Shown: piece by piece, positions 19,078 to 52,900 of the stretch | Layout: every line of letters begins with the position of its first letter | Position numbering within the stretch: the stretch's first letter is position 1 | Assembly (NCBI RefSeq): GCF_964030895.1 | Contig: NZ_OZ034986.1 | Span: forward strand, 558,001 to 622,000 | Source of the DNA: Spiroplasma endosymbiont of Nebria brevicollis | GTDB lineage: Bacteria; Bacillota_I; Bacilli_A; Mycoplasmatales; VBWQ01 | Reading direction: 5' to 3' | DNA: 64,000 nucleotides | Translations under genes and position numbers: made by a program | Notes under the pieces: model-generated | Told to the model about the DNA's origin: nothing | The model's input: only the letters and a program-made list of their open reading frames with translations | The model's database searches: none

Positions 19078-22012
<2,935 letters not shown>

Positions 22013-33078: not shown

Positions 33079-33175
33079 TATTCTTAAATGTTATTTACTT
33101 TATTTTAAAATTAACTATAATTAAAGTGTATCAATATTATTTAATATTATTTATAAAATATGAATTTTGACTATT

Positions 33176-33214: not shown

Positions 33215-33302
33215 ATAGTTTTACTAAAAAAATTCATGCTTTATAAACAATTTTGATTAATGATACTTTTTATATTTTTTAAAACCAAGGGAGAAGCAAA
33301 TT

Positions 33303-33602: not shown

Positions 33603-33642
33603 TCTTAAATAAAAATAATTTTATGAAACGAGGTGAGAACGT

Positions 33643-35007
33643 ATGAATTGACTATGAGATGGGCTATTGCATATATTATTACTCCTTCCATGAATGATAT
33701 TTGTTTCTGGACCATTAGAAATAATTCACTTGCTATTATCACCACATGGTATATTTGACTATTTAACAACTGATGCCTTAACTAATTTAATTTTTGGTAA
33801 CTTTATAGATGATCCATTTAATACTAAGCATTTGCCGCAATTCTTTTTAGCACTTTCTATTGTTGCTGTCGGTTTAATTGTTATTATGTTTATTATGCAA
33901 TTAATAATCATTCAATTTACTGAGACCCATACGATACGTGAGAAACTAGGTAAGGCCATTAAAAATACTTTTTTAGCAGTCTTAGTTATTGTGTTTATCC
34001 CCTTATTTTTTAGTTTAATTAATTATTTAATAACAGGATTGTTAGTGGTTTTGAAAATTACTGCTGAAGGTAGTTTTACTGATTTAGCAGATAGGTTATG
34101 AGGAATTGGTGCCCCTAATGCGCAAAGTGCCAGCCAAGTTGCTGAAGGTTATGGTATGCCACCAGGATCGATAGAAAATTGAAATTTTATTTTAGAACTT
34201 GTTGCGATTTGATTTACATTATATGTATTATTTGTTGCGGCCATGACTCTAGTAGAACGAATCATTGATTTAATTCTTTTGTTCTCAATTTCGCCAATTG
34301 TTGCTTCTATGATGCCTGTCGACCAAGGAAAAAGGTTAGGTGTTTGAAAAGAAATGGTGATTGGTAAATTTATTATCGGTCCTGGTACCATGTTGCCAAT
34401 TTACATTTTTATGCAAGTATTACCGGCTGCAGTTGTTGATATTAGTAAAACATTTAACGGTTCTAGTGGTGATATCTGATTAGAAAAACAAATTCTATAT
34501 GCCTTATTTTGTACAGCAGGTGCTATTAGTTGTTTAAAAACCCAAAAAATCATTAACCATTTAGTAACTCAAAACTTGGGAGTGCAAAGCGCTATTGATT
34601 CTAATGGTGCAGGGATTGCTGGCAGTATTGCTGGTAAAGCGCGTGGTTTTGCTAGCCTTGCTTCTGGTGGTGCTGGTGCCTTAAAACTTGGAAAACAAAT
34701 GCTGGTGGGTGGTGCTAAGGATGGCAAAAATCCTGATGGAAGTACTAATTCTGCCAATGGATTACTGAAAAATGGATTAACTGGTTACATTGGTAAAGGT
34801 GGTAAATGAGGTGCTAACATTGCAGGAAGAATTGGAAAGTCCCATGCTGAGGGTACTAAAGCCAAAGACTTTGGAAGTAAACTTGTAAGTCCCATTACAA
34901 CTCCAGTAAAAAATGTATTGGGTACTCTTAGTAGTGCACGCGATGCATTGAGTAGTTCTTATGGCGAAGGCAGATATGGCGGTCCTAATTATGATCAAAT
35001 GGACTAA
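33643..35007 (+). CDS. VirB6-like polytopic membrane protein
   Basis: A 454-residue protein. Residues 1-300 contain about six to seven transmembrane segments (for example FFLALSIVAVGLIVIMFIMQ, TFLAVLVIVFIPLFFSLIN, IIDLILLFSISPIVASMM). Residues 310-454 form a soluble Gly/Ala/Ser-rich tail. It resembles the VirB6/TrbL-type and the Mbov_0396-type membrane proteins of mycoplasma integrative elements (from memory). It should form the inner-membrane channel around the VirB4-like ATPase. The start has ACGAGGTGAG, and several UGA Trp codons lie in the first 20 residues. Confidence 0.72.
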
Positions 35008-35042
35008 AATCATGTTTTAATAAATGTAACTAGGAGTTTATT

Positions 35043-35162
35043 ATGAAAGCAAAAAACGAATTTAAAAAGAAAAAAAGTTATCGGTTTCGTCGTAATGTCA
35101 TAATTGGGATCTGCATGCTTATTGTTTGTACAATTGCTGGAGCAATTGCCACTTACGGTTAA
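35043..35162 (+). CDS. 39-residue single-span membrane peptide
   Basis: The peptide has a basic N-terminus KAKNEFKKKKSYRFRRN followed by one hydrophobic helix, VIIGICMLIVCTIAGAIATYG, and TAA. An AGGAG ribosome site lies 9 bases before the ATG. It is placed tightly between the VirB6-like and VirD4-like genes, which argues it is real and part of the machine. No family is recognised. Confidence 0.6.
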   Translation: MKAKNEFKKKKSYRFRRNVIIGICMLIVCTIAGAIATYG

Positions 35163-35192
35163 TATTCAATTTTATTAAAATAGGAGCAAAAC

Positions 35193-37088
35193 ATGAAATT
35201 TCTACGCACAAAAAAATGAGTCTTACCAACTATCTTATTGATAGTAATACCGTTCTTAGTTGTTATTAATACTTTAGGTATTTATGCTATTATTTTCGTT
35301 AGTAGTATGTTTACTGATGCTAAACAAGAACAATCATTTACTTTCGAACATTTAATTCAAGGTGTTAAAAATCATTGATTGATATTTTTAGTTTTATGAG
35401 TAATCGAAATTAGTGTTTTATTGTTTTACTTAATGATGCATAAATATAAGATTCACCGCGAAACACATAATAAAAGTCGCTTTCTTCGTGATTCTAAAAA
35501 TAAAGTTTATGGTTCTGCAGCATGACTAACAACTAATGAAATTGCTAATATTTTCCCCTTATCAAAAACAGTCAAGGATGATTATGGAATTGTTGTGCAA
35601 ACATCAAAAGCTAAAATTGGTGGTGTCCAATTTAATATTAAGCCTGATGCCCATAACATTGTGATTGGAGGGACTGGTTCTGGTAAAACCCAAAAATTAG
35701 TTATTCCTACTTTATATTTAAATGCGCAATCAAAAGTTAAACCATCAATGGTTATTACCGACCCCAAAGGAGAACTATTTCAAAATCATTCTAAGATTTT
35801 AAAAGATAATGGTTATGATGTTTACGTTATTAATTTACGTGATACGTCAGTTTCTAATTCTTGAAATCCCTTTGTTAAAGTTTATGATTTCTATGTGGAA
35901 TCAATGCGCTTAAAAAAAGAAAATAATCCGTTAAACGAATCTATTACTTATGAATCAATGGCGTTATCATGAATTAATGATATTGTTGAAGCATTGTTTC
36001 CTGAATCAGACCCAAAACAAAAGTTTTGAAATCAATCAGCGATGCAAGTTGTGAAAGCTATTATGTTATTTATGCTTGAACAATTAGAAGATCAGCCTGA
36101 CGTGCCATTAAAATACTTTAGCATGTCTAATGCAGCGATTGTAGCTACTAATCGTCAACGTTTCGTTGAAATTCTAAAGAAGATGCCAACTCAAAGTTTG
36201 GCGCGTCAAATTGGATTAGGAGTGTTAGAAGGAGCTGAAGAAACTGCAGGTTCAATTAGTCAAATGGTAGCCAATGGATTACGTTTATTTACTGATCCTG
36301 TTACTAGAAATATTAGTTGTAGCAATGATATTAATTTAGATGATGTTGTTAAAAAACCAAGTGCTGTTTTCTTAGTTGTTCCTGATGAATCTAATGAACG
36401 TAATGCCTTTGTCTCAATGTTTATTGCTCAGTTATATAAGAATACTATTCGTTATGCTAGTACTTTACCTGATTTAAAGTTACCGCGTCCTTTATATTTC
36501 ATTTTTGATGAGTTTGGAAATATTCCAACGATTGCTAATATGGCACAAATGATTACCGTAGCACGAAGTCGTAATATTTTCTTTATGATGATTATGCAAG
36601 ATTTACAACAGCTAACACAAAAATATGGTAAAGAAACGGCGGAAACTATTTTTAATAACTGTATTTTACATACGTTTTTACAAACTATGGATTTACAAAC
36701 TGCTAATAAATATTCTGATATGTTTGGTGAAAAAACTATTATTAACTATAGCCACTCGGGTAATAAAGATAAAAAAGCTGATAATATTAACTCTTCTTTG
36801 CAAGGTAAGAAATTGATTACTGGTAGTGAATTGATGAAATTAGATTTTAATACTGCCGTTATTTTCTTAGCTAAACATAACCCTGCCAAAACAAGATTAA
36901 TCCCCTTTTATGAATGAGGTGTTAAACCGACAGGAATGTCATCTGTTACTAATGCTTCACGGTTAATTGATTTTAATAAAGATTACTATTTAAGTTATAT
37001 TGGTCTCTTTTATTATATTGAAAAACGGAAAAATCCTGAAGCTGCTGCTCGTGAACAGAAAGAATCAGAACCTCAAGCGAAAAGATAA
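35193..37088 (+). CDS. VirD4/TraG-type coupling ATPase
   Basis: A 631-residue protein. Two N-terminal transmembrane helices (about residues 10-40 and 62-88) precede a motor domain with Walker A IGGTGSGKTQKLVIPTLYL near residue 158, ITDPKGELF, SWNPF, and Walker B LYFIFDEFGNIP near 434. An NIFFMMIMQDLQQL motif follows. Coupling proteins bring DNA-protein substrates to type IV secretion channels. It is the last gene of the locus, closed by a terminator at 37100. A decayed relative of a different lineage lies at 42791-43650. Confidence 0.9.
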
Positions 37089-37206: not shown

Positions 37207-37400
37207 GTGTGCCATAGCCAAGTTGTGTAGTAGATGAGGGTAGGGCCCCCCTTGGATCGACTTACAAGAGTAGGTTTAAACCACCATAAGTTGCGTTGGT
37301 AAAGAGCCAAGGTAATGATCGTTATGGAAAAGGAGTTATTTGAAAGCGTCAGGTGTTAAATAGAGAGATGAACACAAGTGAACCTTTGATCAAGTATCGT
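37207..37400 (+). ncRNA. Structured RNA, group II intron 5' domain-like
   Basis: About 190 bases of clearly higher G+C than the surroundings, with no ORF. It begins GTGTGCC, matching the group II intron 5' splice consensus GUGYG, and contains GGGTAGGGCCCCCCTTGG and, near 37366-37399, GATGAACACAAGTGAACC followed by TTGATCAAGTATCG. The latter resembles the domain I exon-binding-site region of bacterial group II introns. No reverse transcriptase or domain V is present, so it would be a 5' remnant. A TATAGT at 37203 and a terminator at 37473 leave open a stand-alone transcript. Confidence 0.4.
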
Positions 37401-37531: not shown

Positions 37532-38335
37532 ATGAATGAAAATGAAAGAAGAGATATTAGTTTATTAACAGCTGCTAAAAAAGGACGTTTAGATGTAGTG
37601 GAAGAATTAATAGTTGCTGGTGCTGATGTCAACCATAAAGATGAATATGGTTATACTCCTTTAATGTTTGTTGCTAGAAATGGTCATCTAGAAATAGATA
37701 GAATGTTATTAGGGAAAGGTGCTGATGTCAACCATAAAGATGAATATGTTGAAACTGCTTTAATCTTAGCTGAGCGAAATGGTCATACAGAAATAAAAGA
37801 AGCATTAGATAAATTTTTAGAGATTAAAGGATGAATAGAAACCAATAAAGAAGTTGAAGATAGTTTTGAAGACATTAGTGCTATTGAAGAGTTAGAGCAA
37901 GAAACACGGATAATAGAGTTATTAGAAGCTTTTCAAACTAAAATAGAAGCAGAAAGTAAGGAATTAAATTTAAACGTTGTAAACTTTCTAAAAAAAGAAT
38001 TTATCAATAATTTAGAGTTCGATGAAGGTTCTTCAATATTACATATAGCAGTAAGAAAAAACATGCCAAATTTATTTAATTATTTAGTTGAAAACCAACA
38101 AGTTGATATTAATGCTAAAGATAAGGCAGTATTAACAGCATGAAAACATGCTTGTTTATTATTACAAAAGGAAAATGTTTTTACTCTTAAAAAACCTGAG
38201 GAAGTAACCGATGAAGAAAGAGAATTTCTAAAAGAGAATCTTGGTTTATTTTCAACGTTAAATAAAAATGACCCAAATGTTATTACTTATAAGAGTTTGT
38301 TTAAAATCTTTGTAATAAAAGGCAATGAAACATAA
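37532..38335 (+). CDS. Ankyrin-repeat protein
   Basis: A 267-residue protein. Two clear ankyrin repeats lie at residues 8-75 (LLTAAKKGRLDVVEELIVAG, ADVNHKDEYGYTPLMFVARNG), with the same ADVNHKDEY phrase used twice, and a degenerate third repeat follows. A further weak pair lies near residues 165-205 (GSSILHIAVRKNMPNLFNYL). No signal peptide is seen. Ankyrin proteins in endosymbionts are candidate host-interaction factors (inference). A GAAAGGAG ribosome site precedes the ATG. The 3' end touches the end of the opposite-strand IS5 remnant, so the C-terminus may have been altered by that insertion. Confidence 0.78.
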
Positions 38336-38503
38336 AACAATCATTTGTAAACTAGTATTGAGTTTACGTTCGCAATTTTTTCATAATTGTCTGCATTTTT
38401 CTAATCAACCAAAAGAACGTTTTACAACTCATCTTTTGGGTAATACAACAAAATTGTGTAATTCGTTACGTTTTACTACTTCAACATTTGTATTTATATT
38501 AAT
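38336..38503 (-). pseudogene. IS5-type transposase, C-terminal fragment
   Basis: The minus-strand reading INTNVEVVKRNELHNF, VVLPKRWVVKRSFGWLEK, CRQLWKNCERKLNTSLQM is the conserved C-terminal block of IS5-family transposases (PKRWVVERSFGWL). It is separated from its N-terminal half (39442 onward) by the IS1595-type element copy B. The frame joins exactly across the 8-bp target duplication. Confidence 0.85.
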
Positions 38504-39441
38504 CGGACTTCTCCCCACATGTACTTGTGGAGGAAAAAATGAATTGAAATGAATTCAACAGAATATTTCAAACTGAAAAACAATGTCTTGCATATATAGC
38601 AAGTTTGAAACAAAGCAAATGTATTAGGTGTTCTAGTTTTAATTTGAATACTTCTGATTTAAAAAGAATGAGATGTTTGAAATGTCATCAAACATTTAGT
38701 ATTCTCACGGGCACTATATTTTCAAAGTCCCAAACGTCTTTAATATCTTGGTTTTATCTCATCTTTAGATGAATAAACACCAAACATGGAATTCCATCAA
38801 CTGATGTTGCAAAAGAATTGGGAGTGACCTTGAAAACAGCTTGAAGAATGGGTCATAAAATCCGAAGTGCCATTGCTAAACAAAAACCTCAATTCATTGT
38901 TGAAGGGATAGTGCAAATAGATGAAATGTATCTTTCACATATGGGTTTTAAAAAACAAGGAAGATCCTTGTTAAACAAAACCTTGATTGTTGGCATTTAT
39001 CAAAAAACAACCAATAATTTAATTGTGAAAGTATTGAAAAACGCAAACAGTAAAAATCTTTTGCAGTTTGCAAGAAACCACATGTCTTCAAAGTGTGATG
39101 TACATACTGATTTGTGAAAAGGATATCGCGATTTGAAATCGGTTTTCACTAAGCATGAAACAGTTAACCATCAAAATGGCTATGTTTCAAAAACTGGTGT
39201 AAATACCAACCAAATTGAATCAGTATGAAAACATATACGAAGAACATTTAAAACACATATCAAAGTTGCAAAACATCATGTTCATTTATATGCAAAAGAA
39301 TCAGCATATAAATTCAATAACATACCTAGTTTTGAAACTGTAATGCTATGTTTGATTTAAAACTGTGGGGAGAAGTCCGTAGATAGGCTTTTCTCAGCAT
39401 TTATGTGATAAAATTTAATAGTACATAAAGGGAGAAAAGCC
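38504..39441 (+). mobile_element. IS1595-type element, copy B (938 bp, intact)
   Basis: Flanked by 8-bp direct repeats ATATTAAT (38496-38503 and 39442-39449). The left end is CGGACTTCTCCCCACATGTA, its complement ACTGTGGGGAGAAGTCCG is at 39362-39379, then TAGATA, then a palindrome GGCTTTTCTC ... GAGAAAAGCC at 39386-39441 that reaches the target duplication. The outer arm of the palindrome resembles the left end (shared TTCTCCC and ATGTACT). The same architecture occurs in copy A. It carries an intact transposase and is inserted in an IS5-type transposase gene. Confidence 0.9.
38539..39360 (+). CDS. IS1595/ISXO2-type transposase, intact
   Basis: A 273-residue transposase. The zinc ribbon SKCIRCSSFN ... 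MRCLKCHQTFS covers residues about 27-60. A helical linker ISWFYLIFRWINTKHGIP and helix-turn-helix TDVAKELGVTLKTAWRMG follow. The DDE-type catalytic region has VQIDEMYLSHMG (Asp), DVHTDLWKGYRD (Asp) and TNQIESVWKHIRRTF (Asn/Glu). A GTGGAGGAAAAA ribosome site is present. Length is normal for short IS1595 members. All motifs are present, so this copy may still be active. Confidence 0.92.
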
Positions 39442-39790
39442 ATATTAATTTCTATTATTTGATTTGCAAATTTTTCTCCCGGATAACCTCCATCAACTAG
39501 TATATTTTTTACTTCAGAGAGATTTTCTTGTGTTTTCTTAACCATTGTTGTAGCACCGTTACGATCAGTTATTTCTGCTATTGTTACATAAATTGCATGT
39601 GGTAAACCCTGATTATCAACTGCAATATGGCGTTTTATGTCTGAAATCTTTTTACCAGCATCATACCCTTTTGTTTCAGCAGTATCTGTGTTTTTTACGC
39701 TTTGCGAATTGATGATGCAGAAACTAGTTTTTTCTTCTCATTTTTAGTTCAGGAATTTTTGTTAGGTTACTTATTTGTTTTTTCCAAACT
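39442..39790 (-). pseudogene. IS5-type transposase, N-terminal/central fragment
   Basis: The minus-strand reading TSFCIINSQSVKNTDTAETK, GYDAGKKISDIKRHIAVDNQG, LPHAIYVTIAEITDRNGA, VKNILVDGGYPGEKFANQI is the catalytic region of an IS5-family (DDE) transposase, with Asp in DxxG and LVDGGYPG. It is interrupted at EIN by the IS1595-type element and lacks the N-terminal domain. Together with 38336-38503 it forms one broken gene. Confidence 0.85.
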
Positions 39791-39854: not shown

Positions 39855-40502
39855 ATGAACGTTCCTAATTCAATATCATTATTCAGACTATTATTGGCGC
39901 CAGTGATTATATTTTTAATGATAATCGCACCTATTAATGATAGTTTCTATCATTTATGAAATGGTACTATTAATATTAGAAACTATCAATTGCCTATTAG
40001 TTGATTAATGGCAGGTATCTTATTTATTATCGCTTCAATTAGTGATTTTATTGATGGGTGGTGAGCACGAAAATTTAATCAAGTAACTGTCTTTGGTAAG
40101 TTTTTTGATTCGATTGCTGATAAATTACTAACTAATGGTGTCATAATTGTTATGGCTTGCGCTACTATCGTTCCCATTTGAATGGCAGTTATTTTAGTAT
40201 TACGTGATTTTATTATCGATGTTGTCCGTCAAATTTTAGCTAGCAAAGGTACGATTATGGCTGCTGATAATTATGGTCGTGTCAAAGCAGCAGTGCAAAT
40301 GGTAGGAATCACAATCTTATTTTTTGTTAATTTTCGCTTCCTAAGTGGAACTGTTAGTGGTAACAGTATCAATGATTACTATGGTATAATTAACCAATTA
40401 GTACTATTACCAATGTATATTGCTACTATTTTAAGTATTTTTAGTGCTTATAATTATATTCATCTTAATGCTAAAAATTTATTTAGTGTGGAAAAAAAAT
40501 AA
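39855..40502 (+). CDS. pgsA: CDP-diacylglycerol-glycerol-3-phosphate 3-phosphatidyltransferase
   Basis: A 215-residue integral membrane enzyme that makes phosphatidylglycerophosphate, the first step to phosphatidylglycerol and cardiolipin. The CDP-alcohol phosphotransferase signature D-G-x2-A-R-x8-G-x3-D-x3-D is complete in FIDGWWARKFNQVTVFGKFF followed by DSIADK. Around five to six hydrophobic helices are visible. The start follows GAAAGGATTTT. Seventeen bases downstream is an SDR gene in the same direction, probably co-transcribed. cdsA, which supplies its substrate, is at 47257. Confidence 0.95.
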
Positions 40503-40519
40503 AAAAAGGAGTATCAAAT

Positions 40520-41326
40520 ATGAAAAACAAAGTTAGTGTATTAAATCAATGAGCAGTTGTAACTGGTGCTTCTAAAGGTCTAGGGTATTTTTATTGTCAA
40601 TTTTTATTATCCCAAGGCTATCATGTCTTAGGTGTTTCACGTAATAGTAAAAATATTTTAGACTTAGTCAAACAATATCCTCATTTACAAGTTAAAAATT
40701 ATGATTGTGATTTATCATATATTAAAAATGCTTACCAATTATTTGAATTTACCAAAGAATTAAATGTGACAGTAGTTATCAATAACGCTGGCTATGGAGT
40801 ATGAGGCAAATTTCAAGAAAGTTCTTTAGAACAAGAATTAAATATGATTAATTTAAATATTACTACTTTGCATATTTTAACGAAACTATTTGTGCAACGT
40901 TTTGCTAAAAATAATTTTGGGCGGGTTATTAATATTGGGAGTATGGCGTCATTTACACCAGGTCCTTCTTTTGCTAGTTACTATGCATCTAAAGCTTATG
41001 TATGAAATTTAGGAGTAGCGATTAATTATGAATTAGTTCGCGCTAAGAGTAAAGTTCGTGTTGTTACTATTTGTCCTGGACCATTAGAAACTGATTTTTG
41101 AAATCGTAGTAGTAATGGTAAAGGTAGCAAAGAACATTATAGTTCATTATTACCAGTTTTGGATACGCAAACTTATGCCGATAAGTCTTTGAAGAAAGCT
41201 TTAAAAGTAAAAAGAAAAGGATTTTTGGTAGTAGGTGGTTCTAACAAAATCACAAAATGTATTATGAAAATTTTACCATTTAGAATAGTATTAAAAATGG
41301 TATACAATTATCAAAGTAAACGTTAA
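40520..41326 (+). CDS. Short-chain dehydrogenase/reductase
   Basis: A 268-residue SDR. It has the N-terminal cofactor motif VVTGASKGLGY (TGxxxGxG) near residue 13, the structural INNAGYG (NNAG), the catalytic Ser in NIGSMASFTP and the YxxxK pair in SYYASKAYVW, then CPGPLETDFW. The C-terminal 40 residues are basic and partly hydrophobic, as in the DltE-like/ketoreductase branch that can sit at the membrane. Reduces or oxidises an unknown carbonyl or alcohol using NAD(P)H. It follows pgsA by 17 bases with an AAAGGAG site. Confidence 0.92.
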
Positions 41327-41588
41327 AATATCAACTTAAACAAGTATAATATTGCTTTTAAATATTTTAATCCCTAATTAATGATATTATGAATATATTA
41401 AATTTTTTGTATAATCTCAAACTAAAATAAATATTGCTTTGGTTTTATTAATAAAAATTTTAAATGATTTATGCAAGAAATCTAATATTGAAGAATAAAA
41501 ATCTAATTAATAGTGTATGAAATTAATTATTGAGCAAATCTAAAAGAATAAATACTAACATTTCCATATTTTAGAAAGGGATGAATGT

Positions 41589-41985
41589 ATGAAAAAAAAG
41601 AAAAAGGTTTGATTATCTATTGTTTTATCATCAATATTAATTGCTAGTGGTATTATATTTGTTATTATTTTTTAAATTTAGTAGTTGCACCAATCAAAAA
41701 ATAAGCACTCCCTTTAACCAATTATCTGGTTGACAAGAAACAAATGGTTGGGTTATTATAGTTTAGCAGTTTTTGGTAATGATTTATATATTGGAACAGG
41801 AAATAATAATCATACAGGTAAATTCTTTAAATTTGATGGCACCACAATTACTTTAATAAATAATTGGCAAGCAACAAATGGTTGAATTAATAGGTTATAC
41901 ACTTTTGGTAATGATTTATATATCGGAACAATAACTGGTAGTCATAAAGGCAAATTATTAAAGGTAACGCAATTTGATAATTAAC
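41589..41985 (+). pseudogene. Broken lipoprotein with W-x-ATNGW / FGNDLYIGT repeats
   Basis: The start at 41589 gives MKKKKKVWLSIVLSSILIAS and a hydrophobic stretch, then a frameshift just before a SSCTNQK-type lipobox. Two copies of a repeat follow: ATNGW, L-x-FGNDLYIGT, GKFFKFDGTTIT (about 45 residues each). These resemble the tandem blades of secreted repeat or beta-propeller-type Spiroplasma proteins. A second frame break lies near 41765. The reading ends abruptly as it runs into an IS1595-type fragment. Function unknown; the gene is dead. Confidence 0.55.
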
Positions 41986-42027
41986 TCTTCAGTTGCAATA
42001 CTTTTAATGTTTTTCCAATAGTTTTTT

Positions 42028-42152
42028 AAATCAGAAGTATTTAAATTAGAACATCGTATGCATTTGATTTCTTTCAAAATTGCTATATATTTAAGATTTT
42101 GTTGTTTGGTTTGAAGAGTATTATTGAAATAAGTAGCATTTGAACAAAACCT
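42028..42152 (-). mobile_element. IS1595-type transposase fragment (third copy)
   Basis: The minus-strand reading FNNTLQTKQQNLKYIAILK, EIKCIRCSNLNTSDLK is the zinc-ribbon start of the same transposase as copies A and B (FNRIFQTEKQCLAYIASLK, SKCIRCSS.NLNTSDLK). Only about 40 codons remain, with no inverted repeat. Confidence 0.75.
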
Positions 42153-42174
42153 TATTATTGATGATAAACTACCT

Positions 42175-42264
42175 AATCGCTCATTTTATGATAAAATTTG
42201 AAGATTGAATTAATCTGAATTAGTAATTTTGTAAAACTAAGTTGCACAGATTACTGGAAAGCCT
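42175..42264 (+). mobile_element. IS256-type 3' end fragment
   Basis: The sequence AATCGCTCATTTTATGATAA and the following 70 bases, to GGAAAGCC, match the complement of 58503-58592. In that copy it encodes the IS256-type C-terminus (NEAIAHFMIKFEDKI) and the element end. This is a short relic in the same orientation as the plus strand. Confidence 0.6.
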
Positions 42265-42437
42265 CTCTCCTTTGTCCAAACTTTCACTTTTTATTTAGAA
42301 AAACTCATTACTACTGAGCAATTAATACCTTTTCCTTTTACATAATAACTACTTGCTGATGAACTTTGGACTTAACCACTTTCGTGAATTGTAATTTAAA
42401 TTGGGATAATGGTAGATTATCATTACTTTGTTATAAA

Positions 42438-42788
42438 TTAAAGATAATTATGATAACACAGAGTCTCCTTAGAGGGTTTTTTACTCTTAGGAACTAGTGG
42501 TTCTGGGAATTCACTGTTGCAAACTTCTAAATCAGACATTTCAAGGATTAGTTGGTTAAATTTTTTTGATGGTACTCCTTCATTAGTTACTAAATTATTA
42601 TTAATGTATTCTACAGAAGAAAAATTTTCCTAATTATTTTTTAATACCTCAATCTTATCACAACATTTTTTTGAATCGCTTAGTAACTCGTCTGCTCTTT
42701 CTACTGTGTATTCACTTTCTTTTTTATTTAATAACGATTCTCTTTGGATTAATGCTTGAATTTCTTTTTCAGTAAATGACAAATTCAT
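42438..42788 (-). pseudogene. Hypothetical charged protein with internal stop
   Basis: Start 42788: MNLSFTEKEIQALIQRESLL, NKKESEYTVERADELLSDSK, then an in-frame TAG, then ENFSSVEYINNNLVTNEGVP to TAA 42438. About 115 residues if the stop is ignored. Helical and acidic; no family recognised. It is divergent from the VirD4-like fragment that starts 3 bases away, so it may belong to the same lost plasmid-like unit. Confidence 0.35.
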
Positions 42789-42790
42789 AC

Positions 42791-43650
42791 CTTATTTCCC
42801 ATTCCCAAATCTGATAATCCGATGTGAACACAAAATGCAGGACGTATGACTGCTGGGGTTATATGTGCACTATTAGAAATCCTTGATGTCAATGATTTAC
42901 CATTAGCACGAATTAACTTAACAACAGTCGCGTTCTTACTTGCCAATCAAGAAAATTTAGTAAAGTGATTTACTAACCTTGGGTTAGTTAAACCAACGAG
43001 TAAAGCCTTTATCACAGCTGCGCCAGTAGTTAATTCAGTTGAACAAACACGACAAGGAGCATTCTCAAATATTGGTCCTGCTCTTAAAATCTTTGAAGAG
43101 TTAGGAGTACAAAACATTACTTGTAATAATGACATTGACTTATTTAAGTTTACCGAAAAACCCAAAGCTCTATTTTTAATCATTCCCGATGAAAAACTAA
43201 TCGCCATATTATTGGTTCATTGTTTGTCTCACAATTATATAAAGCCAATGTTTTTAGTGCCAATGAATATTGAATATGCTTATAATTGTCCTAGTTTTAA
43301 TTTAAGAACTTATAACCCCATTGATAAAAGAAAAGTTAATGTTATTGATTTTTACCAAGACCATTTCTTTGATTTAATTAAGTATGACTTTCAAGTTAAA
43401 TTAAAAAAAATACATCTTTGAAATCCAAGAGTTACTGGATTTACAAAATAACAATTTAGAACTGTATAGTGAAAATCAAGAACAATTGCAACAAGATGAA
43501 GCACTGATTAGAGACCAAATTCATCAATTAGAACTAGAACAAAGTGATGTTGAAACCTTAACTACTGAAGAACGGTTAATGTTAGGTAATTTAAGGAGTA
43601 AATTAACCAACATCAAAAATAAATTAAATATTTTCAATCAATCAGAGTAA
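42791..43650 (+). pseudogene. VirD4/TraG-type coupling protein fragment
   Basis: The reading NAGRMTAGVICALLEILDVNDL, TRQGAFSNIGPALKIFEELG and KPKALFLIIPDEK aligns in order with the chromosomal VirD4-like protein (NQSAMQVVKAIMLFMLEQL, AGSISQMVANGLRLF, KPSAVFLVVPDES). A frame break follows at about 43194, after which HIIGSLFVSQLYKANVFSAN matches the next motif. A coiled-coil tail (LYSENQEQLQQDEALIRDQI ... KLNIFNQSE) ends at TAA 43648 after another poly-A frameshift near 43410. Walker A and B are lost. It comes from a lineage distinct from 35193-37088, probably a pSci-like plasmid (inference). Confidence 0.65.
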
Positions 43651-43977
43651 TTCTGATTTTTTGTTTGTATAATAATTACAATATGGTTAAGAAAATATAC
43701 TACAAATTATATTAAAATTTAAAATGAAAATAACATTAAAAGTATATCACTAGATTATAGAAGTAAAAAACCTTTAAATTTATATGCTGAAAATTTTACA
43801 AAAAATAAAGTTTTACGAATTTGAATCTTAATAGAATTTATTGATGATAAAGTATTTTATTGAATTGATACTGATACAGATGAAAAATCTGATAAGAATG
43901 ATAAAGAAAAATTTTTAATCAAGCATCAATTAGACATTGAATTATAAATATTAAATTGAAATAGAAGGTATATTAAA
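43651..43977 (+). other. Remnant ORF without start
   Basis: A 75-codon open stretch reads NNIKSISLDYRSKKPLNLYA, then KVLRIWILIEFIDDKVFYWI and ends IKHQLDIEL before TAA 43945-43947. No start codon or family is recognised. Probably a decayed accessory gene of the neighbouring plasmid-like unit. Confidence 0.3.
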
Positions 43978-44573
43978 ATGAAAAATAAAAGAACTAAAAG
44001 ATACTTTAAAAAAAATTGATACTAAAAATATTAACAGTTCAAAAATTGCTTTATTTAAAAAAACTATTCTTACAACTTTTCCTAATGAATTAAATATTTT
44101 AGATGAAAAAGTTCCAAACTTAAAAGAAATTCAAACTGAAGCAGGTATATGCAAGTTTAAAGTTATCATCAACTCAAAAAAACTTGTTCAAGACTGAAAT
44201 AATTTGCCTATAATCTTTTCTACTGATTATATCCTAAATAATTATTTATCTTTTGAAAATGTTGAAGGATTTTGTTTTTGAAATGATAAAGATATTTTGA
44301 ACAAAGAAATAAACAATAATAATCCTTTATTTCCTTATTAAAGGAAATCAGCATAGTTCAGATGATTTAGTAAAAGAATTACTTTTTAAAGGCAATCATA
44401 TAATTCATATAAAATATTGTGAAGTTAACTCACAATTAACAGAAAAAGGTTTAGAAATTTTAAATAGCAATCCATGAACAAGAAATTATAAATGATTAGT
44501 TCCTATTTTTACTACATTATTAGCTGTTGCTGGATTAGTTGCTGCAATAATTACTTTAGCTATAAAAAAATAA
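43978..44573 (+). pseudogene. Hypothetical protein with C-terminal membrane anchor, frameshifted
   Basis: ATG 43978 is out of frame with the main reading KIKELKDTLKKIDTKNINSS by one A in a poly-A run. The frame breaks again near 44337 at FPY-stop, where FIKGNQHSSDDLVKELLFKG continues in another frame. The tail LVPIFTTLLAVAGLVAAIITLAIKK is a transmembrane anchor ending at TAA 44571. About 195 residues when repaired. No family is recognised. Terminator at 44581. Confidence 0.45.
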
Positions 44574-44580
44574 TTATTCT

Positions 44581-44602
44581 AAACTCGGTTTCCGAGTTTT
44601 TT
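44581..44602 (+). terminator. Terminator
   Basis: AAACTCGG/CCGAGTTT with a 3-base loop and a T-run, 8 bases after the preceding stop. Confidence 0.75.
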
Positions 44603-44694
44603 GTTGCTTGCCACAAATTTGGACACACCAAAAAGTACGGTTAACACCTCCTTTTTTGAATGTGTATGGTCAAATTTAGGTACAACAAAATATC

Positions 44695-44758
44695 GAGTTG
44701 GGACAATCACTCATTTTATCCGGTGTAGACCGGATAAAATGAGTGATTGTCCCAACTC
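44695..44758. repeat. Perfect 30-bp inverted repeat with 4-base loop
   Basis: The left arm 44695-44724 starts GAGTTGGGACAATCACTC and ends TATCCGGT. The right arm 44729-44758 is its exact reverse complement. The loop is GTAG. There is no mismatch in 30 bp. It is richer in G+C than its surroundings and is not followed by a T-run, so it is not an ordinary terminator. It lies in a gene-free plasmid-like stretch. A replication origin, transfer origin or fossil element end are all possible. Confidence 0.9.
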
Positions 44759-44797
44759 CTTAACCTGTTTTCTTTTAAGTGGTAGATTAAAAGGGAA

Positions 44798-44841
44798 GTC
44801 AGGGAAATTTGTGCCTTTTTAGGTGGCAAAATTTCCCTGAC
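44798..44841. repeat. Inverted repeat GTCAGGGAAATTT
   Basis: GTCAGGGAAATTT (44798-44810) is repeated inverted as AAATTTCCCTGAC (44829-44841). The inner bases GTGCC/GGTGGC extend it imperfectly. It lies 40 bases after the perfect 30-bp palindrome. Confidence 0.75.
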
Positions 44842-44849
44842 AAAATAAA

Positions 44850-44871
44850 AGAGAACCCTTGTGGTTCTCAT
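44850..44871 (-). terminator. Minus-strand terminator-like hairpin 1
   Basis: GAGAACC-CTTGT-GGTTCTC. On the minus strand the stem is followed by TTTTATTTT, as in an intrinsic terminator. A second hairpin with the same stem is at 45019-45036. Confidence 0.5.
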
Positions 44872-44943
44872 CCATTCATAAGACTAAATATTCAAAATTA
44901 TTGACTATAAAATGCTATAATTTAATAGTATATAACTATCGTA

Positions 44944-44983
44944 AACGCAAAAACATGTTTCACATCTTTTTGCGTTTTTTTGT
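44944..44983 (+). terminator. Plus-strand terminator
   Basis: ACGCAAAAA pairs with TTTTTGCGT across a CATGTTTCACATC loop, followed by seven T. A promoter-like TTGACT lies at 44901 with TATAAT at 44916, but that spacing is too short for a standard promoter. Confidence 0.6.
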
Positions 44984-45018
44984 TTTTAAAACGAATTATC
45001 AATTAAGATAAGAAAAAA

Positions 45019-45036
45019 GAGAACCTAACGGTTCTC
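45019..45036 (-). terminator. Minus-strand terminator-like hairpin 2
   Basis: GAGAACC-TAAC-GGTTCTC. On the minus strand it is followed by TTTTTTCTT. Same stem as 44850-44871, 165 bases apart. A further hairpin, TTGGTTA/TAACCAA, is at about 45056-45087. Confidence 0.5.
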
Positions 45037-45206
45037 CATAATCTAAGTGAGATTTGGTTACCCACCGGTTAACTTTCATTAACCAATAACAATAATATTA
45101 TTACACATTTAATTTAAATTACAAGTAGGAAACTTGATGATTTTTTATTAATTATGATTAGACCCTAATTATGAAAGGAACATATAAAATGATAAATTTT
45201 TAAAAA

Positions 45207-45696
45207 ATGTACATTTATAAACTTTTAAGAACTAAGGAGTTAGATCATGAGTTTGGCCGACCTGCAATATTTTTAGATTTTTTCGGCAACGAATCATTAG
45301 TATGATTTGGTACATCAATCAAATCAGAACTTAGTGAAAAACCACTTACTATTAAAATTAATAACGGTTAATACCTATTTTTATAATAAAGGTTTAACAA
45401 AAGTGAATACTAAGAAATTAGTTGATAAATGAAGAAATCGTAATACTAACAAAATTATTATGTTGTCAGACTTACAACAAAAACAATTAATTGCTAAATT
45501 TAGTACTTTAACCTTACAACCAAATCTCTATCTAACCATTAATGAGTTAAGAGAGAATAACGAAGACTTAATAATTAAAACCAACAACATTTTTAAACTA
45601 TTAGATAACTACGATCTTAAAATCAAAATCTTAGAAACGAAAGTTGAAAAACTAGAAAAACAAATTAAAAATGAGCAGTTAACCCATGGACAATAA
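45207..45696 (+). pseudogene. PemK-like/ICE-associated protein with coiled coil, frameshifted
   Basis: ATG 45207 reads MYIYKLLRTKELDHEFGRPA, IFLDFFGNESLVWFGTSIK, stopping at TAA 45369. Shifting frame there gives VNTYFYNKGLTKVNTKKLV and a coiled-coil end, KIKILETKVEKLEKQIKN, to TAA 45694. The RP-x-I-F-L-D, FGTSIK and GLTKVNTKKL spacing resembles PemK/MazF-fold proteins and the Mbov_0400-type proteins of mycoplasma integrative elements (from memory). It overlaps the next ORF by 11 bases, an operon-like arrangement. Confidence 0.5.
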
Positions 45697-46276
45697 CCTA
45701 ATCCCCAAATTCTTAAACCAACAACATGTTATTATTTTCAAAAATTTTACCTTCTATGACTTAGGATTAGCAATTGCCTATTTTCTAGTTGCTGTCCTAA
45801 CAACAGTAGGATTAGTTATGATTCTCCTACTTTATCGTGTCATGACAGCGATTACTATTTTCACCTTATTATCTTTAACCCTAGTTACTAATAACCGTTA
45901 CAATTTGAAAATTTACCAAATTTTAATTTGAGTATTCCGTTTTCGTACCAAGAAAAAAAATTTTCATCAAAGTAGCAAAACTAGTAATACTAGTTTTCTC
46001 ATGCCCTATGCCAAACTAGTTAATAATTTTATTGAAAGCGAACGTTTAGAAGGTGGTTTAAAGTGATACATTACTGCCATTGAAATTAAAGGATTTAACA
46101 TTAGTACTTTAAGTCCAGAAGAACAACTTTTAAAATGCAGAAAACTTCAAGATGTCTTTAAGTTCTTAGACTGTCATCTTAGCTTAGTTAAAATTGACCA
46201 ACCAATTAATATTAATGATTGAATAACTTATTGCAGAAATCATGTAAAAATGATATCATATAAAAAAGTTACTTAA
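45686..46276 (+). pseudogene. N-terminal remnant of VirB3-VirB4-type conjugation protein
   Basis: A 196-residue product. It has two hydrophobic helices (about residues 25-50 and 53-75, PrgI/VirB3-like), then LEGGLKWYITAIEIKGFNIS and LQDVFKFLDCHLSLVKIDQP. The latter parallels IKDLAAAFKIVNISMSLIKI in the intact VirB4-like protein at 30361. The motor domain is missing and the sequence ends at TAA 46274. Most likely the truncated start of a second, plasmid- or ICE-derived secretion ATPase. Confidence 0.55.
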
Positions 46277-46307
46277 TTTAACAACAATGAAAGCAGGTAG
46301 TATATTT

Positions 46308-46571
46308 ATGACAAAAGCAGGGAGCATTTTAATTCTCATTGTTTTTATTTTTGAATCAATTTTTATTATTCCATTATTTTGAACCATTCCTGGTTTCAAT
46401 TTATACTTAAAAGTAAATAAAGGCCAAGCAACTGAAGAACAAAAAATGACTTTAGCAATTTTAGGAATTATTTTTGGGGCATTACTAGGTATTATTGGAG
46501 GTATTTTAATGCTTGTTGATTTAAACAATAGAACAACAGTCATAAATCGTGGTAGCAGAGTTATAAAATAA
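46308..46571 (+). CDS. Small two-helix membrane protein
   Basis: An 87-residue protein with transmembrane helices at about 6-28 and 48-70 (SILILIVFIFESIFIIPLFW; TLAILGIIFGALLGIIGGIL) and a polar C-terminus. An in-frame ATG at 46287 would add seven residues that duplicate the MxKAGSI phrase. It loosely resembles DUF4064-type membrane proteins of Mollicutes. A stem GCAGAGTT/AATTCTGC with T-run (46555-46584) ends the gene. Function unknown. Confidence 0.55.
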
Positions 46572-46584
46572 TTCTGCTTTTTTT
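46555..46584 (+). terminator. Terminator overlapping the small membrane gene end
   Basis: GCAGAG ... CTCTGC-type stem (GCAGAGTT/AATTCTGC, one mismatch) followed by seven T. Confidence 0.55.
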
Positions 46585-46685
46585 GTAGTTTATAATAATT
46601 TTCATTGGTTTTGTAAAAAAATATTATATAATTTTTATAGTTTGATTTAAAAACATAATACTAATCAAGTAACTGGAGGTAACCA

Positions 46686-47228
46686 ATGGAAGTTATTGTT
46701 TTAACAACAACAAAAGAAATGGATAATGTAATTTCACATTACAAACAAGAAATTAATAAAATTAGAACAGGAAGAGCAAATCCAGCAATTTTATATGCCA
46801 TTAATATTAGATGTTATGGGAGTATGGATCGTCTAAGTCATAATGCTCGTATTAATGTAGAAGGTGCGCATCAATTAGTAGTACGTCCTCATGATCGTAG
46901 TTTAGTTAAGTCTATTACCGAAGCTATTACTGCTGCTGATTTACGCTTACAAATTAAAACTGAAGCTGATGCTGTTCGTTTAATTTTCCCCCAATTAACA
47001 GAAGAAATCCGTAAGAGTCTAGTGAAAGATTTAGCAAAAATTACTGAAGAATACAAAATTAAAGTTCGTAATGTTAGACGTGATGCTATTCATAGTCTCA
47101 AAAAACAAGAGTTACCAGAAGACCAAAATAAAAAAGGTGAAGAAAGAATTCAAAAATTAACTGATATTAAAATTACTGAATTAATGAAAGTAGAAAAAGA
47201 TAAAATTACTGAACTAATGAAAATTTAA
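46686..47228 (+). CDS. frr: Ribosome recycling factor
   Basis: A 180-residue RRF that, with EF-G, splits post-termination ribosomes. Signatures are INKIRTGRANPAILYAINI, CYGSMDRLSHNARINVEG, and the C-terminal helix TEEIRKSLVKDLAKITEEYK, KVRNVRRDAIHSLKKQE. The sequence is divergent but collinear with the family. ACTGGAGGTAACC precedes the ATG. The usual upstream neighbour pyrH is absent; the gene instead follows a decayed accessory region. cdsA starts 28 bases downstream, giving an frr-cdsA-rseP-polC order common in Firmicutes. Confidence 0.93.
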   Translation: MEVIVLTTTKEMDNVISHYKQEINKIRTGRANPAILYAINIRCYGSMDRLSHNARINVEGAHQLVVRPHDRSLVKSITEAITAADLRLQIKTEADAVRLIFPQLTEEIRKSLVKDLAKITEEYKIKVRNVRRDAIHSLKKQELPEDQNKKGEERIQKLTDIKITELMKVEKDKITELMKI

Positions 47229-47256
47229 ATAAGAGGTGAATTAGGGGGTTAAAATT

Positions 47257-48279
47257 GTGAAAGCAAAAGCAATTTCTTCAATACAAAATGAAGATAAAAA
47301 GATATTAAAAGATAATTCATGGTTTTTTAAAAAGTATCAACAACGAATTATTACTAGTATTGTGCTAATTATGGCCGCATCAGTGTGGATGTTTATTGGT
47401 GCTGTGTATTTAGAACCAATATTTGGTGTCAAACCATTATGGTCTGCATATACGTTCATGGCGATTAATACTTTAATCTTAATTGGATGTTTGTGAGAAA
47501 TCATTAATTTAAGACAAGCAGCAAAGTGACCACTAGCCTTAAAATTATTAGTTATTACGATGGGAATTATCTTTCTCTGATTTCCGATTGGTAAAGAAAC
47601 CTTTGGTCCATATCTTTATAATCATTTATGATTTGAAACATGAATGTCAATGGTAGTGTTATTTGGATTTATTGCTATTTTTCTTTTAATTGCTTATCGC
47701 GCTAAAACCTTTCAATTAGGTGATGTGTTATTTGTGTTTTTATGAGTTGTTTATTTAGTATTAGCGTTTAAATCTGTTAACTTTTTGATGTTATCACAAA
47801 TTAATTCTGTTCAAAAATTAGGTTGACCAACATTATTATTCTTATTTGTGATCGTCATGTCGAATGATATTGGTGCTTTTATTGGTGGTGTTATTTATGG
47901 TAAAACTAAGTTAGCCCCCCGTGTTTCACCCAATAAAACTTGAGAAGGTGCTGCTACTGGACTAGGAGTTGCTATGGTATTAAGTATGGTGACAGTTATT
48001 ATTTTCTTACAAACAAGTAATTACAATCCGTTACCTTTCTATGAAGGTTCAATTGGTAAAGCACCAATTTATATTGCTTATGTTGCTGTAGTTTTTATCT
48101 TATCACTGATTAGTCAAATGGGCGATTTATTGTTTTCATACTTAAAACGTAATTATGATGTTAAAGATTTTTCTAATATATTTCCTGGTCATGGTGGATT
48201 GTTAGATCGTTTAGATTCATTTTCTGCTGTTGCGATTGCCGGATTTATTGTGGCACTATTGTTTTCAAGTGTCATTTAA
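47257..48279 (+). CDS. cdsA: Phosphatidate cytidylyltransferase
   Basis: A 340-residue polytopic enzyme that makes CDP-diacylglycerol from phosphatidic acid and CTP, the precursor for PgsA. The family signature is visible as [33 protein letters not shown], plus [20 protein letters not shown] and [13 protein letters not shown] near the C-terminus. About eight membrane helices. Translation starts at GTG 47257 with GGGGG upstream; no better ATG is near. It lies between frr and rseP in one apparent operon. Confidence 0.95.
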
Positions 48280-48310
48280 TAATTAATAAAAAATATTTAA
48301 GGATGAAGTT

Positions 48311-49420
48311 ATGTATATCTTTTTAGCCATTTTAATTGGTTTATTTACAATATTATTTTTAATTACCCTCCATGAATTTGCTCACTTTGTAATTGCTAAA
48401 TTATCTGGTGCGTATGTTTATGAATTTGCCATTGGTATGGGTCCCAAGATTTTCCAATGGGGTAAAAAAGAAACCCGTTATACATTGCGTCTATTACCGT
48501 TAGGTGGTTATGTATCAGTAGCATCGGAAATTGCTGATGCTCCTAAAGGTCGTGAAGAAGAAGTTGTTGAACCTAAACGAATGATGGAAAATCTTCATCG
48601 TGGTAAAAAAGCGGCTTTTATTAGTGCTGGGGCCATTATGAACTTATTATTAGCATTTGTTTTACTTATGGTTGGGTACGGGATTTATCCTTACAAATAT
48701 GATCCTAATTTACCACCAACTTATGCTAACACAGGACCATTATATGAGGATGTGGAAAAATATAATAAAGATAATCCAACTATGCCTATTTTAAGTAGTT
48801 CTGAGATTACTCATATTTATAATACTGGTGCTTCTAAATCTGCTACGGATATTAAGTCTTATTATGATTTACAAAAATGATTGAATAGTTATAATAAAAA
48901 GTACAATGATACTATTCACGATTATCAAATTACTTTTGATAAAATTAAAGTTGTTACCTTTAAACCAGAATACCAAAAAGGTGTCTTGTTTATTGGTGTT
49001 AGTCAACGTAGTTATCATTTAAGTTCAGGTTCTGTTTTTACTGAAGGTATTGTCGATGCGTTTAAAGATAGTTATAGTTTATTACAAGCTCTAGGTCAGC
49101 TAGTTACTTTCCACTGACAAAATATATCTGGACCTGTCGGTATTGTTAAATCAACAAATAGTTTTTTAAATCCTGACTTGTCAGCAACCCAAGGGGCAAG
49201 TACTTATTTTCGCTGAGCTGCCTTACTTTCTTCTAACTTGTTTTTATTAAATATGTTACCAATCCCACCACTGGATGGTTATAAATTTGTTGAGAACGCA
49301 GTAGAAGCTGCCTCTAGAAAAAAACTTAATACTAAATATAAAACCATTGTTACAATAGCAGGAGCCTTACTATTTTTAATTATCTTTGTTGTTACTACGA
49401 TTAAAGATATATTCTTTTAA
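48311..49420 (+). CDS. rseP: RIP metalloprotease RseP (site-2 protease)
   Basis: A 369-residue membrane zinc metalloprotease of intramembrane proteolysis. The zinc motif [11 protein letters not shown] (HExxH) is near residue 21, [29 protein letters not shown] follows, an extracytoplasmic PDZ-like region spans about 130-250, and the second metal motif [14 protein letters not shown] (LDG) is near 320. It is likely to cleave membrane-bound regulators or signal-peptide remnants; the substrate is unknown. AAGGATG precedes the ATG. Transcribed after cdsA. Confidence 0.94.
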
Positions 49421-49951
49421 TAAAAGTGATGATAATATGTTAATTAACAATTTAATGACAAAAGATTGAGCATGGTAAACAGAAAATAAGACCTGGTTTT
49501 GTTATTAACTCTTATCCAAAACATGTAAAAGTGCAATTATTTTTGTAATTAATGGTAAGAAACAATATATAAGATTTATTTATCATAAAACCATTGATTT
49601 TTCAGAAATTATTAACTTTGATATGAAAAAGATAAAAATTGAAAACAATAGTAAACCTTTTGAAAAAATCATTCAAAATATAAAAATGTATAAACAACAA
49701 GGAAATAAAGTAACTAATTTAGAAAAAGAAATGAAAGATTTAAAAACTAGCTTAATTTAACCAAAAAATACAAAGCTCTCATTCAAAAAAAATTCAGAAA
49801 TGAGTAAAGAAATAAAATCTTTAACAAATGATATTATAAAATATGTTAATAAAAATGATAATTATATGTTAATCTTAGAAACAAAACATCTTAATCCAAA
49901 AAATACGATATAATTAACCCACTAATTATGATGAAAGGAAACATAAAACCA
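49421..49951 (+). other. Gene scraps between rseP and polC
   Basis: Open stretches without starts: about 49547-49760 (VINGKKQYIRFIYHKTIDFS, ending in a coiled coil NKVTNLEKEMKDLKTSLI) and 49793-49912 (EMSKEIKSLTNDIIKYVNKN). The first resembles the tail of the coiled-coil PemK-like or ICE-type proteins elsewhere in the window. Probably one decayed accessory gene inserted in the frr-polC cluster. Confidence 0.35.
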
Positions 49952-52900
49952 ATGAACCAAGATTTACAAAAACTTTTCCATGAAATAGGATTTGACGATT
50001 TTGATAATGATTTTACTAACGCCACTGTCCATAGTGTCCAATATTTTCATCATAATCAACAAGCCAACATCACTATTAATTTACCTAACTTCTTACCAAT
50101 TACTACCCTAAAACGCTTTGAACAACACTTCAAACAATTAGGAGTACCTAATCTTAATATTTACTTTACTGTTAATAACAATTTTAATGAACAATTAGTT
50201 TTAACATATTTTGAATATATTAAAACCTACAAACTCCATTTATTAGCTGGTATTTACTACTCATTACCGACATCTGCCCTTAATTGCATTAATAACATGA
50301 TTACTATTACTATTCACAATAGTGTTGAAGAAAAATTAATTAAAAATGAATTAACACAATTTATTAGTTACTTTCATCAATATGGTTTTCTTAGTTTACA
50401 AATCAAAACTGTGATTAATCCAAATCAACAACCATTTTCTAGTTACGAAAGTGAAGCAAAAGCACAAGTCCAAAAAATAACAGAGGCTTTAAAATCAAAA
50501 CCAATAACTAATACTATTACTCCACCAAAACAAACGTATGGTGCTTATCGTAAAAAATCCAAAGTGAACTTAGAAATTACTAATTACACGCACCAAATTA
50601 AAGATATTCTTAACGATGAACCCAACATCATTGTGACAGGTAAAGTTTTTAAAATTAATAAATTCTTAACTAAAACTCAAAAATGATTTTATTCATTTTC
50701 GATTACTGATTATACTGATGCTATTACTTGTAAATCATTTATTAGTAGCGACCAACCTGATGCAAAATTAGATAGTATCAAAGTTGATGATTGAATTAAA
50801 GTTTCAGCCAATAGTCGTTATGATAACTTTAGTAAAGAACAAGTTTTATGGATTGATGATGTTATTGTTGACCAATCATTAAATATTGTTGTTAATGATG
50901 ATGCTGTTTCAAAACGAATTGAATTTCATACCCACACCAAAATGAGTGCTATGGATGGAATTACTTCGGCACAAGATTATATTCATCAAATTGTCAAATG
51001 AGGTCATCAAGCCATTGGTTTTACTGACCACTTAAACGTTCAAGCCTACCCTGATATTGCTAGTGCTGCTAAAAAATATCCTAATTTAAAAGTTATGTAT
51101 GGTGTGGAAATGGATTTGATTCCTAACAATATTAGTATTGTCAAAAATGTTATCAATGAACAAATAGCAAACCTTGAATACATAGTACTTGACTTAGAAA
51201 CAACCGGACTATCTGTTAACTTTCATGAAATTATTGAATTAGGATATGTAATTATGAAAAATAATGTAGTTATTAAACAAGATACGATTCTCATTAAACC
51301 TCGCACGTTAGTACCAGAACACATTACTGAATTTACTAATATTACTAATGCCATGCTAAAAGATAAACCAGAACTAGCAACAGTGTTACCAACCATTGTC
51401 GAATTAATTGGTAATCGTACGATTGTTGCCCATAATGCTAATTTTGATTTTGGATTTTTACAAGTTGCCATGAAAAACCATAATCTTCCTTTATTAACTA
51501 ATCCAGTGATCGATACTTTGCAATTATCACGTGTTATGCAAGCGCAATTAAAATATTATCGTTTAGGTGCGATTTGTCGCGTTTATGGTATTAAATATGA
51601 TGACGATACTGCCCATAGGGCTGACTATGATGCTAATGTGTTAGCACAAGTTTTTGGTAAAATGTTAAAACAATTGCGTGATGAATTTAATTGTTTATTA
51701 TTAAGTGATGTTAATAAGTTAATTTCTTCTGATATTAACAACAAACTTCGCGGTGAACATATTACTGTCTTTGCTAAAAATCAAACTGGTTTAAAAAGTC
51801 TTTATCAATTAGTTTCATTATCACACACGCAATATTTTTATAAATCTCCTAAGATTGTTACTAAAGCGATTGATTATTTACGAAAAGACTTATTAATTGG
51901 TAGTAGTTGTGTTAATGGTGCTGTTTTTGAAACTGCTATGAATAAAAGTGATGAACAATTAGGAGCGATTATGCAATGATTTGATTTCATTGAAGTTCAA
52001 CCACCTTCGGTTTACCAAAACTTAGTACAAATGGGTAATATTACCCAAGAACAACTCCATGATATTATTAAAAAAATTATTGATAATGCCATGAAACTAA
52101 ATAAATTAGTTATTGCCACTAGTGATGCTCATTATTTACATCCTCATGAAAAAATGTATCGTGATGTTATTATTAATAGTAAAGGGATTGGAGGAGTATT
52201 TCATCCATTATATGATCGACGAGGTAAAGTTACTTCATACCCTGACCAATATGTTCGCACGACAAGTCAAATGTTAAAAGAATTTAGTTTTTTAGATAAT
52301 CCCAATTTAATTAATGATATTGTTATTAACAATACCCAACAATTAAGCAATCAATTTACCATGGTTAAACCGATTAAAGATGGTTTATTTACACCAACCA
52401 TTGATAATGTTGATCAAAAATTACGTAACCTTTGTTATGAAGAAGCGTGAAAAAGATATGGTAATCCGCTGCCAACCATTGTTGAAAAACGTTTAACACG
52501 TGAATTAAATGCTATTATTACGCATGGTTTTGCTGTGGTTTATTGAATTGCCCATAAGTTAGTAGCAAAGTCTTTGCATGATGGTTATTTAGTGGGGTCG
52601 CGTGGTTCGGTTGGTTCTTCATTAGTAGCAACCTTTGCTAATATTACGGAAGTTAATCCCTTACAACCACATTATTTATGTCCACAATGTAAAGCCAGTC
52701 AATTCATTAGTAATGGTGCTGTGAAATGTGGTTATGATTTACCATTTCAAGTTTGTTTAAAGTGTAATGTCAACATGATTAGTGATGGTCATGATATTCC
52801 CTTTGAAACCTTTTTAGGATTTGATGGCGATAAAACTCCTGATATCGATTTAAACTTTTCAGGTGAATACCAAATGCAAGCTCATGATTTTACAAAAGAA

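Follow-up and report, generated by a model that had tools for sequence, protein, structure and literature searches.

A long perfect palindrome within a hairpin cluster of a Spiroplasma chromosome, tentatively read as the relic of a plasmid control site

The chromosome of the Spiroplasma endosymbiont of Nebria brevicollis carries a 64-base palindrome (H3, 44695-44758) in which two exact 30-bp arms enclose the loop GTAG, and this palindrome belongs to a compact row of hairpins at 44600-44841. Positions refer to the window, that is, the whole stretch of 64,000 nucleotides analysed here (558001-622000 of a single contig of 1,490,306 bases, with genes read under code 4). Our preferred reading, held tentatively and at less than even confidence, is that the cluster may be the relic of a plasmid control site that arrived when a conjugative plasmid or ICE integrated, resembling the Inverted Repeat Region (IRR) of Spiroplasma plasmids and yet of a different type.

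The palindrome is real. Its arms pair at 30 of 30 positions, as an earlier note on this DNA had described, while about 1.3e-10 such arms would be expected by chance (loop of at most 20, 64 kb, window composition). Dinucleotide shuffling of the window (200 times) yielded perfect arms of 17 bp at most, and with 44600-44850 removed the longest one left in the window itself is 16 bp, so that chance can be excluded. The same note was right that the arms are richer in G+C than their surroundings (13/30 against about 27%) and that no T-run adjoins them; none follows the stem on either strand, and H3 does not qualify as an intrinsic terminator. Other stretches of the same genome (226 kb) hold 10 perfect arms of at least 15 bp, all of them 15-20 bp long and A+T-rich, which makes a 30-bp arm with 13 G+C an outlier. 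Beyond H3 a weaker pairing extends outward (41-nt arms at 88%), the perfect match ending abruptly on both sides, and the flanks, AATATC and CTTAAC, form no target-site duplication.

The cluster of further hairpins that had been claimed around H3 is also present (H2, H4, H5 and H6; Table 1). Folding of 44570-44990 against shuffled sequence gave z = -13.2 for RNA and -14.1 for DNA. We then scanned fold energy in 3,765 G+C-corrected bins of 250 nt, re-scaled on 1,590 sampled chromosome bins. The bin at 44626 reaches -107.2 kcal/mol, or z = -8.3 against the chromosome sample, and ranks first among the 511 bins of the window; the lowest z among the 1,590 sampled bins is -4.28, placing the cluster beyond all of them. 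Several long hairpins within about 250 nt of non-coding DNA, a mark of the plasmid IRR, are found here.

Table 1. Hairpins of the cluster and neighbouring features, in window coordinates.
Feature	Position	Strand	Remarks
Coupling protein fragment of a T4SS (TraG/TraM-recognition type)	42756-43451	+	blastp E 2e-5 to the pSciBLHMB-2 ORF under a 'TraM recognition' gene; no Pfam match
H1, ordinary terminator	44581-44602	+	AAACTCGG TTT CCGAGTTT and T-run; ends the decayed gene at left; left border of the cluster
H2, imperfect hairpin	44600-44689	none	90 nt; fold
H3, left arm	44695-44724	none	30 nt, perfect inverted repeat
H3, loop	44725-44728	none	GTAG
H3, right arm	44729-44758	none	30 nt, exact reverse complement of the left arm (30/30)
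H4, weaker T-rich/A-rich hairpin	44768-44797	none	11 pairs with G-U, 8-nt loop
H5, hairpin	44798-44841	none	13 perfect outer pairs and 4 inner pairs
H6, terminator-like hairpin	44851-44869	-	right border of the cluster
Repeated plasmid-derived non-coding module	44858-45240	+	promoter-like stretch, hairpins H7 (44943-44977) and H8 (45018-45037); precedes the small protein gene
Small protein gene, split in two frames	45207-45696	+	45207-45371 and 45307-45696; homologous to psAtri3, psAtri4 and psAtri7 genes
VirB4-type (DUF87) conjugation ATPase, N-terminal fragment	45686-46276	+	

The cluster is flanked by remains of conjugative elements. The coupling-protein fragment lies 1.2 kb to its left, with 1.1 kb of another decayed gene in between, and to its right stand the small protein gene, shared with the psAtri plasmids of a Drosophila atripex symbiont, and the VirB4-type fragment, for which tblastn against phages and a search for related loci both returned nothing. 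That the palindrome lies in plasmid or ICE debris, as the earlier note had stated, agrees with these fragments, with the shared psAtri gene and with a fold of plasmid strength. The origin of transfer proposed in the note is a candidate role, and the cluster fails the sequence models of the IRR (see below).

The non-coding module immediately to the right of the cluster recurs at 81-84% identity once more in the same genome (L025) and twice in a related one (L026 and L027), its matches beginning at 44909, 44918 and 44858, respectively. At all four places it stands before a small plasmid-type protein gene and contains a hairpin, AAACGCAAA...TTTTGCGTTT, with a T-run, followed by a second hairpin; a leader or small RNA is a possible identity.

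Further conjugation genes, long ones, occupy 30337-37085 of the window (a VirB4-type gene at 30337-33075 and plasmid-like ORFs at 33619-35004 and 35184-37085). They are adjoined by a complete rRNA operon (17356-22196) and the RNase P RNA (24637-24982), and are followed by a group II intron piece (37236-37354) and then an ankyrin-repeat protein (37532-38335). At 38261-39743 an IS1595-type element with the terminal repeat CGGACTTCTCCCCACA, which is unrelated to H3, interrupts an IS5-type transposase gene and is flanked by its two halves.

In Spiroplasma citri plasmids, five hairpins upstream of the gene pF form the 'Inverted Repeat Region', for which Saillard and colleagues suggested a role as replication or conjugation signal (PMC2386487). 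That 2008 paper found neither a Rep origin nor a relaxase nor a recognised oriT and proposed the IRR as a candidate (PMC2386487); for pBJS-O, too, no recognisable oriT is reported (PMC1318496). Neither a nic site nor a relaxase is known for these plasmids. On pSciBLHMB-2 we found the IRR to consist of a 28-bp perfect palindrome at 9934-9989 together with further hairpins, pF lying at 9303-9893, and 35 plasmid records match it, all from Spiroplasma. On pSci3 one pair of the same palindrome differs, yet both sides have changed together and the palindrome stays perfect; from this compensatory change it follows that the genus keeps such palindromes. The earlier note had argued that H3, being unstable in bacteria, must be either very recent or maintained; this does not agree with the plasmids, and for 64 bases the premise is overstated. 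The severe effects of palindromes in E. coli concern much longer ones; one such study reportedly used 460 bp. Since Spiroplasma plasmids keep long perfect palindromes, length and perfection by themselves do not imply an artefact or a recent origin.

Hairpin clusters of comparable strength occur on plasmids of the genus, as a rule one on each. The top bins reach z = -7.6 and -6.2 on psAtri1 (which has two clusters and also two rep and two ParA genes), -6.2 on psAtri2, -6.7 on psAtri3, -5.1 on psAtri4, -6.4 on psAtri6, -5.3 on psAtri7 and -7.1 on pSciBLHMB-2, at a similar G+C (0.27-0.38). The element is also present on psAtri5, where the top bin coincides with the cluster but reaches no more than -3.9. 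On psAtri3 and psAtri6 the cluster lies between the coupling-protein gene and the gene of a protein of about 200 aa, which in psAtri6 is 47% identical to the pF of S. citri.

A covariance model (R1) was built from nine aligned clusters (alignment A2). Over 614 kb it recovered, outside its training set, psAtri2, psAtri5, the locus L165, S. citri, pSci3 and two S. poulsonii plasmids. In the resulting alignment of 16 matches (A3), which was fitted to the model and so leans towards the structure, 94.0% of cells are paired, 34 of the 49 pairs are changed on both sides, and the covariation score is 0.554 against 0.137 in shuffles, with 0 of 500 shuffles as high; slid controls drop to 0.08-0.13. Judged from these alignments, what we call the IRR-pF element unexpectedly covaries strongly across two Spiroplasma groups. 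Its members (L171:926-1152, L172, L181, L182, L162, L153, L164, L155 and L160 in alignments A1-A3, and L154:9880-10160) include S. citri-type plasmids, plasmids of the D. atripex symbiont and sites in the genus of the window itself, and share nested covarying stems, then a T-rich palindrome, then pF. The loop CAACGTAA..TTATGA is conserved in one form on psAtri1, 4, 6 and 7 (motif AACGTAA..TTATGA). The pF protein has weak winged-helix and nuclease-like (CoiA) Pfam matches, and among 20 pF loci a cluster is present at 5 of the 5 where pF starts at residue 1 and at 1 of the 15 others, one of which offered too short an upstream stretch for scanning. At L165:2177-2266 (G003:C1:47838-47927) the IRR is seen beside a complete pF gene in a form lacking the inner hairpin, with 21 perfect pairs and a 4-nt loop.

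The window cluster is not a member of this family. R1 did not find it over the 614 kb at E up to 1, nor did a covariance search of its own genome at E up to 0.1, which did list chance-level places at 21 bits and a recognisable IRR relic elsewhere (C1:1437087-1437144). With filters off, the cluster scored 21.3 and 19.9 bits under R1 and 20.8 and 20.6 under R2, on both strands and in disagreeing registers, the behaviour of a generic hairpin; hairpin controls gave 14.8 and 14.9 bits and true IRR members 40-166. It fails with both training sets, although the first had yielded 21 bits with filters off. The loop motif has 0 matches in the window at up to 1 mismatch, and no ORF at 22-47 kb of the window matches plasmid pF proteins, the pF relics of this genome lying elsewhere. 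Because covariance match, pF gene and loop motif are all missing, we rejected the cluster as an IRR-pF site.

Relatives of the cluster by sequence were sought widely. The earlier note had proposed searching for the arm in Spiroplasma plasmids and plectroviruses, and neither plasmids nor phages gave a match: blastn of the cluster against plasmid records returned nothing better than E 3, and blastn against phage records returned nothing for 43000-46700 and nothing beyond E of about 3 for 44600-44858. The arm has no second copy in its own genome at up to 3 mismatches, and its 25-mer, at the same tolerance, is absent from 319 other genomes of the order. Its exact 18-mer has 2 matches in contigs of 84,980 species and 3 in IMG/VR, which we judged to be due to chance (one lies inside a phage HNH-type gene, for instance) and near which no second arm occurs in either collection; patterns of the palindrome centre had no match in IMG/VR. 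BLAST of the cluster against 320 genomes of the order gave short matches only, the best outside itself at E 6e-4, scattered and without shared context. Two adjacent weak matches (G000:C1:478676 and G002:C55:10143) turned out on reading to be the start of a gene with a Shine-Dalgarno-like sequence and were set aside.

At E up to 10, true relatives appeared only for the module right of 44858, and the interval 44603-44857 has none in its own genome, none convincing in the 319 other genomes of the order and none in plasmids or phages. No known RNA family matches within 40000-50000 or, in a search of the whole window, over the palindrome, and no tRNA was detected. In the literature on Spiroplasma plasmids, as far as its partial journal coverage extends, we found no report of the H3 palindrome or of an IRR in D. 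atripex plasmids. As no collection searched holds a relative with the same cluster, conservation cannot argue for a function.

We nevertheless hold an IRR-like relic to be the most likely origin, because the strength, compactness, composition and setting of the cluster match those of the plasmid clusters, though its sequence and gene neighbour differ. H3 would then be one hairpin of a non-coding cluster that remained after a conjugative plasmid or ICE had integrated and decayed, and we infer that the cluster belonged to the plasmid debris around it. In the intact element the cluster may have acted in cis, as proposed for the IRR of Spiroplasma plasmids. Whenever the DNA was single-stranded, as on the lagging or the transferred strand, the 30-bp arms would have folded back beside the neighbouring hairpins, and the folded hairpins could have shown an initiator protein the site at which to begin replication or transfer. 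At its present chromosomal place the cluster is probably idle, since the conjugation genes flanking it are fragments. A bolder variant supposes that Spiroplasma has a second type of plasmid or ICE, as yet undescribed, and that the cluster served it as origin of replication or transfer. This origin would share no sequence with IRR-pF but would follow the same principle of a perfect long hairpin with lesser ones at its sides, and it may still be usable in trans from the chromosome; this we think decidedly unlikely.

Somewhat unlikely, and the first of the alternatives to be weighed, is an origin of H3 from fused element ends. H3 would be a minimal element (a MITE or an internally deleted IS) with two 30-bp terminal inverted repeats and 4 bp between them, and H2, H3 and H5 would be remnants lying side by side. 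Mobile elements abound nearby, among them the nested IS1595-type element and the group II intron piece described above, and H3 can be read as TGGGACA...TGTCCCA. The comparison with IS3-family ends divides the two hairpins. The inner part of H2 (TGG...TCA) is bordered by TG...CA, with AATT at either end, and contains a segment resembling the IS3 leader of the genus, but its alignment statistics are marginal (p 0.004 at best, without correction, in 49 comparisons), and on this weak evidence it may be a shrunken IS3-type remnant. The arm of H3, in contrast, resembles none of the seven IS ends of the genus compared (IS3, IS5 and the IS1595-type of the window; none below p 0.03), so that among these families the known IS terminus named in the earlier note finds no support. 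H3 has neither a target-site duplication nor, at up to 3 mismatches, another copy of its arm in the genome or the order, and perfection over 30 bp is rare among known IS ends.

Elsewhere in the collection, an IS3-type element (L072, 150-1525, near G005:C1:1936806) has the loop of a hairpin, TTTGTACCTA...TAGGTACAAA, as its insertion site, as though hairpins were its target. At L129 and L137 (G001), near IS5-type transposases, lie inverted repeats whose arms measure about 156-164 nt, probably a MITE-like family.

An ordinary, functionless intergenic hairpin could also have been made perfect by template switching, in which the polymerase uses one arm of a quasi-palindrome as template for the other, a process reported from E. 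coli and yeast. In favour of it are the abrupt ends of the match with weaker pairing further out, and the frequent occurrence in this genome of A+T-rich perfect palindromes 15-20 bp long; left unexplained are the G+C-rich arms and the position of the strongest hairpin of the sample within a row of four others, and we regard this account as unlikely. A transcription barrier is very improbable. Its RNA hairpin would shield the plasmid-derived gene between the terminators H1 on the plus strand and H6 and H8 on the minus strand, and terminator-like sites do surround H3 (plus strand 44581; minus strand 44869 and 45037), yet H3 has no T-run, is far longer than needed and stands where ordinary terminators are already present. 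Assembly error is more improbable still: fold-back chimeras of a single arm can produce perfect palindromes, but the flanks of H3 are wholly different, its loop is asymmetric, the contig is a single 1.49-Mb sequence, and the neighbouring hairpins, being imperfect, are not explained by the same artefact.

If the cluster is a second type of site, it would offer another handle on the question of how Spiroplasma plasmids start replication and transfer. Set against the pSci IRR of S. citri, the window cluster differs in being chromosomal and in having no sequence match, no model match and no adjoining pF; set against the psAtri-type clusters, it lacks the CAACGTAA..TTATGA loop, sequence homology and pF. 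With the pSci IRR it shares compact, non-coding, G+C-rich hairpins near conjugation genes, a perfect palindrome (28 bp there), the absence of T-runs and the rank of strongest fold, in S. citri of the replicon and here of the window and beyond all sampled chromosome bins. With the clusters upstream of pF on psAtri plasmids and in the genus (R1 and R2) it shares nested long stems and a T-rich palindrome about 10 nt further on. The perfect 21-pair stem with a 4-nt loop at L165 recalls H3, and the gene order of the window resembles that of psAtri3 and psAtri6, where the cluster lies downstream of TraG: TraG comes first, then the cluster and then plasmid genes, with a single strand carrying them all.
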